Origin: Candidatus Nanoarchaeia archaeon
Lineage (GTDB): Archaea > Nanobdellota > Nanobdellia > Woesearchaeales > WJIZ01
Assembly (NCBI GenBank): GCA_028279765.1
Contig: JANQND010000009.1
Span: forward strand, 1 to 64,000
Reading direction: 5' to 3'
Length of the DNA stretch: 64,000 bases
Made by a program: the position numbers and the translations under genes. The notes under the pieces are model-generated. The model made no database searches, was not told the origin of the DNA, and saw only the letters and a list, made by a program, of their open reading frames with translations. Position 1 is the stretch's first letter. Each line of letters opens with the position of its first letter. Below are positions 62,507 to 63,246 of this stretch, in pieces.

Positions 62507-62640
62507 TGCAACAATAACGACGGCAGACGCTCAAGCGTTGCTTGAGCTATGACTTACCCCGGCTGGGGCTGAATTTGCTTTAGCAAATTCAACTTCACTT
62601 CAGAGAAGTTGCCCCCAGTCATCTGCGTCATTGTTGTGAA
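62507..62640. repeat. multi-hairpin intergenic element 1
   Basis: The ends pair: CAACAAT (62509-62515) with ATTGTTG (62630-62636), continued by ACG/CGT and CAGA/TCTG. Inside are perfect hairpins: GCTCAAGC/GCTTGAGC (62529-62547, loop GTT), CCCC/GGGG (62557-62568), GAATTTGC/GCAAATTC (62571-62590, loop TTTA), CAACTTC/GAAGTTG (62590-62611), plus ATGACT (62549-62554)/AGTCAT (62617-62622) closing three of them. Terminal bases match those of the element at 63.05 kb in the opposite orientation. It lies wholly between two minus-strand genes. No protein is encoded. Confidence 0.6.
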
Positions 62641-62657
62641 ATTTTTCATATCAGAAT

Positions 62658-62999
62658 TCACTGTATCACTCGTATCCTATGTGCAATAATCTCCATCTCG
62701 CCCTTGTACTCTTCTCCTTTACCTATCACTTCCACCTGCTCCCCTTCAAACACGGAAATATTCTCAAACACAATCACATCAATAGAGCTTGGCTGCTGAA
62801 CACTAATAAATGTGACATTCTCAAGTGCAGTCACCCGAACAACCTCACCTTTTATCTTCACCATCTCCTGCATGCGCTCAGCATTGATTTTCTCAATGGT
62901 TTGCTCATCATACTCCAGGCGCTCAGAGAGAAAAAATAACCCCAATAACCCTACAAGAGAGAGTAAAAACGTAACCAAAAGGAGAATTTTTTCATTCAT
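62658..62999 (-). CDS. membrane-anchored OB-fold-like protein
   Basis: 113 residues. N-terminal helix (about 5-24), then a 75-residue beta domain: MVKIKGEVVRVTALENVTFISVQQPSSIDVIVFENISVFEGEQVEVIGKGEEYKGEMEIIAHRIRVI. The pattern G-x-V-x2-V and 'v.V.G....y.g..eiia..i' fits the OB-fold tRNA-anticodon/RPA-like group. Positioned between the two multi-hairpin elements. Function unknown. Confidence 0.65.
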   Translation of the reverse strand: MNEKILLLVTFLLSLVGLLGLFFLSERLEYDEQTIEKINAERMQEMVKIKGEVVRVTALENVTFISVQQPSSIDVIVFENISVFEGEQVEVIGKGEEYKGEMEIIAHRIRVIQ

Positions 63000-63049
63000 A
63001 AAAGAAGAAATGTTATCTGGTTTAAAGGTTTTATGAGGGTTTCAAGAAG

Positions 63050-63246
63050 TAAGGTGGCAACAACAGCGCAAATGGACGAATACTTGCAGTCCAAAGTTTT
63101 GCAAAGCAAAACTGATTTCATGGAAATCAAAGATACATAGAAACAAAGTTTCTTGTATCTCTTAGAAATTTCTAATTTCAAAGAGATTTCCAGGATCCCA
63201 AAAATCTCAGATTTTTGAGGATGCCTGCCGTTGTTGTTGCCACCAA
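63050..63246. repeat. multi-hairpin intergenic element 2
   Basis: GGTGGCAACAACA (63053-63065) is the exact complement of TGTTGTTGCCACC (63232-63244). Inside: AGTTTTGC/GCAAAACT (63095-63113, loop AAA), TGGAAATC (63121-63128)/GATTTCCA (63185-63192), AGATACA + GAAAC / GTTTC + TGTATCT (63131-63160, loop AAA), palindrome TTAGAAATTTCTAA (63162-63175), CAAAAATCT/AGATTTTTG (63199-63217). Both ends resemble those of the element at 62.5 kb, which reads in the opposite direction. A 90-codon minus-strand frame here is a by-product. Confidence 0.6.

Follow-up and report, generated by a model that had tools for sequence, protein, structure and literature searches.

A dispersed family of modular, structured intergenic elements with a bulged three-way-junction core in Woesearchaeales genomes

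Two multi-hairpin elements near the end of the window, the 64,000-nucleotide stretch analyzed here (contig C8:1-64000 of a 1.50-Mb genome in 31 contigs, 90% complete), belong to a large family of structured repeats that occupies at least 46 distinct places in its own genome and is spread across the order Woesearchaeales. The copies are dispersed, intergenic, and modular; their fold is kept over their sequence, syntenic sites show both gain and loss of copies, and in at least one relative they have multiplied recently. With confidence that is about evenly balanced, we read them as non-autonomous mobile elements, short and similar to REP and MITE elements, that form a large and old family in Woesearchaeota and would act as folded single-stranded DNA.

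Both elements described in the original prediction are present close to where it had placed them (Table 1), and their ends are complementary as claimed, those of element 2 over 16 nt at 94%. The end strings quoted at the time match the minus strand for element 1 but the plus strand for element 2; because the strings come from opposite strands, the two elements are mutually inverted, with element 1 reading in the plus and element 2 in the minus direction. Their ends are similar and their internal hairpins differ, as had been noted. In element 1, the outer stem CAACAAT..ATTGTTG is followed by a bulge, a GAC/GTC stem, a bulged G, a GCAGA/TCTGC stem, and a multi-hairpin interior. Compared with 200 dinucleotide shuffles, folding on the two strands reached z = -5.2/-5.7 for element 1 and z = -9.7/-10.8 for element 2, and in neither case did a shuffle fold as well. 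Element 1 is flanked by genes for an inorganic pyrophosphatase and a small OB-fold protein. Element 2 is flanked by the same small gene and, downstream, by a gene for an AAA+ ATPase with a segment that looks transmembrane; judged from its sequence, this ATPase is probably LonB. The product of the small gene has a hydrophobic stretch at its N-terminus, and its OB-fold match is weak.

Table 1. Positions of the two elements, their parts, and the intervening gene in the window.
Feature	Position	Strand	Remarks
Element 1, subfamily B copy	62508..62637	+	covariance model R1 match C8:62507-62642
Element 1 outer 5' arm CAACAATAACGAC	62509..62521	+	
Element 1 hairpin 1, GCTCAAGC/GCTTGAGC	62529..62547	+	
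Element 1 second arm, conserved ACCCCGG..GGGG module	62549..62622	+	holds hairpins 62570-62591 and 62592-62609
Element 1 conserved 3' end CTGCGTCATTGTTG	62623..62636	+	
Small gene between elements 1 and 2, 113 aa	62658..62999	-	OB-fold PF01336, E 2.5e-4, under the family gathering score
Element 2, a copy of subfamily A bearing additional hairpin modules	63053..63244	-	
Element 2 outer 5' arm GGTGGCAACAACAACG	63229..63244	-	
Element 2 conserved GGCAGG motif, spanning the 3-bp stem, the AG bulge, and the first part of the inner stem	63224..63229	-	
Element 2 module M1 hairpin CATCCTCAAAAATC..GATTTTTGGGATCC	63193..63223	-	common to other copies and other genomes
Element 2 three-hairpin module	63121..63192	-	occupies the GAAAATC/GATTTTC hairpin loop of shorter copies
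Element 2 core hairpin 1, AGTTTTGC/GCAAAACT	63095..63113	-	
Element 2 core hairpin 2, TGGACTGCAAGTATTCGTCCA	63073..63093	-	
Element 2 conserved 3' end TTTGCGCTGTTGTTGCCACC	63053..63072	-	

The copies in the genome were located by BLAST searches with both elements as queries, by two end patterns, and by the covariance model R1. Two subfamilies were defined by their ends: subfamily A (GGCAGGC..TTTGCGCC), which includes element 2, and subfamily B (GACGGCAGACG..TCTGCGTC), which includes element 1. R1, built on subfamily A alone, also picks up B copies, among them element 1 (E 0.027). The smallest copies, of about 85 nt, form a three-way junction with two hairpins. The outer stem of this minimal core has about 12 pairs or more and varies in sequence from site to site; the 5' arm carries an asymmetric bulge of about 3-4 nt, and inward follow a 3-bp stem (GGC/GCC or GAC/GTC), a bulge of 1-2 nt (AG or G), and a 5-bp inner stem. 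In a covariation count made on 21 minimal subfamily A copies, 93% of cells were paired, 23 of 36 pairs showed changes on both sides, and 93 double-change cells were observed against 29 expected (reached by 0 of 500 shuffles), a count that related rows inflate and whose compensatory pattern may be mimicked by template switching at palindromes; the orthologous pairs described below are therefore the stronger evidence for kept pairing. Sliding the partner columns by 1-3 positions lowered pairing to 35-48%. Changes on both sides affect 8 of 12 pairs in the outer stem, and copies with a wholly different outer-stem sequence (on C23 and at C1:30298) still pair.

The differing internal hairpins of unchanged form are modular growth on this fixed core. 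In element 2, the junction of a minimal A core has received about 110 nt, namely M1 and a hairpin with a hairpin-bearing loop. The M1 block (CATCCTCAAAAATC..GATTTTTGGGATCC) is present in at least seven other copies in the same genome, and M1-like blocks occur alone in genomes from other families of the order; a second module, GTCAGAGC..GCTCTGAGCATGC, was found repeatedly among subfamily A copies. In genome G018, related hairpin modules (L049, L052, and L054) are seemingly read through open frames, and one of them adjoins a short repeat of the coding start and resembles palindromes inserted in genes. An M1-like hairpin element in another genome (L050, G001 C44) lies immediately after an apparent tRNA gene.

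Every copy examined in the window's own genome is intergenic. Gene contexts for 41 placed copies comprise 22 tandem (15 in one orientation and 7 in the other), 10 divergent, 6 convergent, and 3 unresolved arrangements. Frequent positions are a few to 30 nt past stop codons (many at 2-32 nt) and 50-80 nt ahead of start codons, which is where room exists beside promoters. One copy, seemingly within a 538-codon frame, actually lies upstream of the likely start of the gene, which in our own reading of its sequence is likely adenylosuccinate lyase-like. The copies have diverged from one another and thus give no sign of recent activity in this genome; neither conserved flanks, a promoter, or a tail around them nor a fixed terminal repeat outside the hairpin was found. 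One A copy (L057, C10:13743-13870) is nested in the remnant of another, with tandem 3' ends TGCGCCAATGTTGTTGCCTGCGTTCGCCGTCTGCGCCATTGTTG. Large multi-hairpin elements of a third, related group, on C17 (L034:280-500), C30 (L035:1280-1500), and C4 (L032:1380-1640), read TGACGGCTGTCGG..CCGACCAGCGTCA on the reverse complement, with GGGG..CCCC cores and GAACTTCGC hairpins, and are apparently a subfamily C.

That the two elements represent a family, as originally predicted, is borne out by the copies in their own genome and by the spread of matches across the order: rather than an absence of further copies and of compensatory changes, dozens of copies with strong compensatory change were found. Of 193 genomes sampled from the order, R1 matched 33, each with between 1 and more than 20 copies; in a phylum-wide sample of 371 genomes, which itself includes this order, every one of the 25 positives was again a member of it. 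Copy number among relatives ranges from 0 to more than 40. The exact B pattern was found on 16 contigs in a search of about 85,000 species genomes; 15 of these contigs belong to Woesearchaeota, Nanoarchaeota, or Nanoarchaeia, and one is labelled Thioploca. The latter, a 4.2-kb contig labelled Thioploca sp. with a B copy (L136, JAAUSR010000169.1), is probably a misbinned Woesearchaeota contig. The exact A pattern gave no match in GTDB genomes, a search from which the own genome or near records may be excluded. The IMG/VR, phage, plasmid, and viral collections yielded no meaningful match, the sole weak one being 44 bases in a Klebsiella phage, and nothing in Rfam reached the gathering score, with chance-level matches only at E up to 10.

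In the window's own genome, subfamily A copies have a preferred direction relative to replication. GC and AT skew are opposite in sign over most of the stretches of this genome on which they were measured, as expected from replication and not from gene direction, and the leading strand was taken from the skew (GC minus AT); on the plus strand of the window, GC skew is negative throughout. Of 27 subfamily A copies, 25 point along the inferred leading strand. Their orientation agrees with the majority gene strand in 15 of the 27, and gene direction does not explain it. With nine A copies added, agreement with the leading strand is 32 of 36 (p = 1.9e-6); for subfamily B it is 7 of 10. On this reading, the A strand would lie on the lagging-strand template and be transiently single-stranded. 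G021 (7/20) and G187/G169 (11/18), in which skews are weak or gene-driven, did not show the bias, and the polarity is thus a property of the own genome until complete genomes are tested.

Evidence for mobility comes from relatives. In G146, five near-identical copies occupy five sites (91-100% identity over 119-164 bp), and in the best-kept of them the shared sequence extends past the stem to form repeats of about 160 bp ending GGGCAGTATT..AATACTGCCC. No target-site duplication was visible by eye around the five, and no closely related empty site was found. Together with a copy from G004 (L081), these copies (L106-L110) represent a sub-type that crosses families, with a AAAAATAAT outer stem and the flanks TTGTCGA / TCTCCTT; it sits in larger inverted repeats of differing sequence.

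Turnover at fixed sites was followed in G187 and G169, two species of one genus in which most coding DNA is about 75-88% identical. The element was kept at four of seven syntenic sites examined and was missing from three. Three kept elements were measured, with identities of 93, 74, and 70%; their 60-nt flanks were 36-53% identical in five of six cases and 85% in the sixth, and those of the 93%-identical element were 43-50%. In two of the three orthologous pairs, hairpin arms have been swapped for different arms that still pair. Retention and loss at syntenic sites, together with the identity of the elements relative to their flanks, indicate that copies come and go and that the remaining ones are constrained. 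Another short structured repeat, GGGCTACATTGGCTTCGCCCTAG / TCCGGACCTAG, lies near syntenic sites in the same two genomes (L150:1600-1660 with L186, and L153:1610-1640 with L167) and differs in length between them.

The suggestion that the elements are miniature transposable elements or transposition sites is supported by their dispersal, syntenic gain and loss, nested copies, and the five near-identical copies in one relative; on the other side, neither target-site duplications nor an autonomous partner were found, and the outer stem is not a fixed terminal inverted repeat. The search for an autonomous copy or dedicated transposase found none, and the unpaired 3' ends found by pattern resembled chance matches. 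PF01797 (Y1) has no match in the own genome, which is 90% complete, though copy number is highest there. Across the order it is present in 67 of 193 genomes, 22 of the 33 element-positive ones and 45 of the 160 others, counts uncorrected for relatedness. IS200/IS605-type transposases act on the lagging-strand template (PMC6006769), and, being enriched with the elements while undetected in the own genome, they are a lead only.

Among known systems, the elements resemble REP sequences, repetitive extragenic palindromes that are served by REP-associated tyrosine transposases (RAYTs) and carry a GTAG (or CGTC) tag at one end (PMC3733652), in being dispersed, intergenic, palindromic, and imperfectly paired, and in the notion of non-autonomous mobile DNA acting on a single strand. 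They are longer (85-190 nt versus 20-40 nt) and form a three-way junction where REPs form a single hairpin; GTAG was found near the ends of 1 of 40 copies, CGTC occurs only within the subfamily B stem, and the REP Y1 tyrosine transposase, of the IS200/IS605 kind, has no match in the own genome. Membership in the REP/RAYT system was rejected, since the tag, the transposase, and the short single palindrome are all missing. With MITEs they share short length, lack of coding capacity, complementary ends, multiple copies, variable position, and gain and loss. MITE ends, however, are a fixed recognition sequence, whereas the woesearchaeal ends co-vary around a conserved internal fold and no target-site duplication was seen. 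The BOX-type repeats of pneumococci are likewise modular and intergenic, with a variable number of internal structured units; compared by description only, they belong to another domain of life, and the woesearchaeal core differs in its bulged stem and three-way junction. Rickettsia palindromic elements and other palindromes are inserted in genes, to which, again by description only, the G018 modules apparently read through frames are similar and the intergenic family of the own genome is not.

Several other explanations bear on the same observations. A structured non-coding or cis-acting RNA family, with one strand transcribed and a functional three-way junction, had been among the original suggestions and is unlikely. 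Strong covariation would fit it, as would the conservation of orthologous elements beside mostly diverged flanks and the common flanks beside the stem in the G146 copies. Pairing, however, is nearly all Watson-Crick, and helix mismatches are G-T in 16 cases versus A-C in 15, a balance that favors no RNA strand; isolated mismatches in the own genome are similarly without a clear strand (G-T 4, A-C 7). In other genomes, isolated mismatches are A-C in 15 cases and G-T in none in the orientation used here, which would give G-U pairs if the opposite strand were the RNA, although much of this excess is one shared position and not independent. Copies also occur in all gene contexts and both orientations, those in the own genome have no conserved promoter or tail, and no Rfam match was obtained; a small RNA gene with its own promoter was rejected because the own-genome copies are without conserved flanks. 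Quite unlikely is a host DNA site for replication, segregation, or nucleoid organization, with a fixed replication polarity, kept by selection and spread as a by-product. Polarity in the 32 of 36 subfamily A copies and retention under constraint at orthologous sites argue for it, but relatives range from no copies to more than 40, so that the site would not be essential, the polarity was not seen in the other genomes tested, and a short protein site needs no long modular interior. An RNA or a host DNA site would explain constraint at fixed sites better than a mobile single strand does.

We consider it improbable that the elements are conventional MITEs of a DDE transposon, bounded by terminal inverted repeats and carrying the hairpin core only as cargo. 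This reading would accommodate the approximately 160-bp repeats that enclose the G146 copies and the different outer inverted repeat around the G004 copy; it is contradicted by own-genome copies without a fixed terminal repeat outside the hairpin, by an outer stem that varies through paired changes, and by the lack of any visible target-site duplication. A bidirectional transcription terminator or mRNA-end stabilizer is very improbable: in some genomes the 5' arm of the stem is rich in A and the 3' arm in T on either strand, and many copies closely follow a stop codon, but divergent genes flank 10 of the 38 resolved copies, own-genome stems end mostly in GCC and not in a T-run, and elaborate junctions are not needed to terminate. 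Solitary integron attC-like sites, as one form of the recombination sites first proposed, are extremely improbable. The attC sites of archaeal integrons (PMC9668308) are also folded single-strand hairpins with extra-helical bases and a variable terminal structure, and a bulged hairpin with replication polarity would suit such a site; yet RYYYAAC..GTTRRRY cores occur in 0 of 37 copies, which largely refutes this reading, and there are no R/L cores, cassettes, or arrays, the copies being single, scattered, and in both orientations.

Under the favored explanation, that of mobile elements acting as folded single strands, the working form would be one DNA strand folded into a three-way junction, in which the outer stem with its bulge, the 3-bp stem, the 1-2 nt bulge, and the inner stem would lead to two or more hairpins. 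The fold would form while the strand is exposed as lagging-strand template, and a putative enzyme acting in trans would recognize the bulged stem and move the element. Unpaired copies would leave the mobile pool or be corrected, so that the arms co-vary while the sequence of the outer stem and hairpins drifts; extra hairpin modules would enter the junction and the hairpin loops, leaving the core intact. Against this explanation, the 93% identity at a fixed site beside 43-50% in its flanks suggests a local function, which a purely selfish element would not need. A more specific form of this proposal is put forward tentatively, as possible but not probable: order-wide archaeal elements whose bulged three-way junction forms on the lagging-template strand, is moved or used by an enzyme that differs from the known machinery of REPs, MITEs, and integrons, and can grow by uptake of hairpin modules into the junction and loops. 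Dispersed structured intergenic repeats are a known kind of element; new, as far as tested, are this architecture, its occurrence in this host group, and its modularity.

In bacteria, dispersed structured repeats are a familiar feature; for Woesearchaeota, a major group of archaea that are tiny and for the most part uncultured, the literature searched described none, and it held nothing relevant on such a family in DPANN. The family offers hundreds of natural variants of one fold in dozens of genomes, so that sequence alone suffices to test its pairing rules, polarity, and turnover. If the elements do act as single-stranded DNA, a new enzyme that handles folded DNA awaits discovery; if they are RNA, Rfam misses a large RNA family. 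In either case, they could mark the direction of replication and changes in gene order in these genomes.
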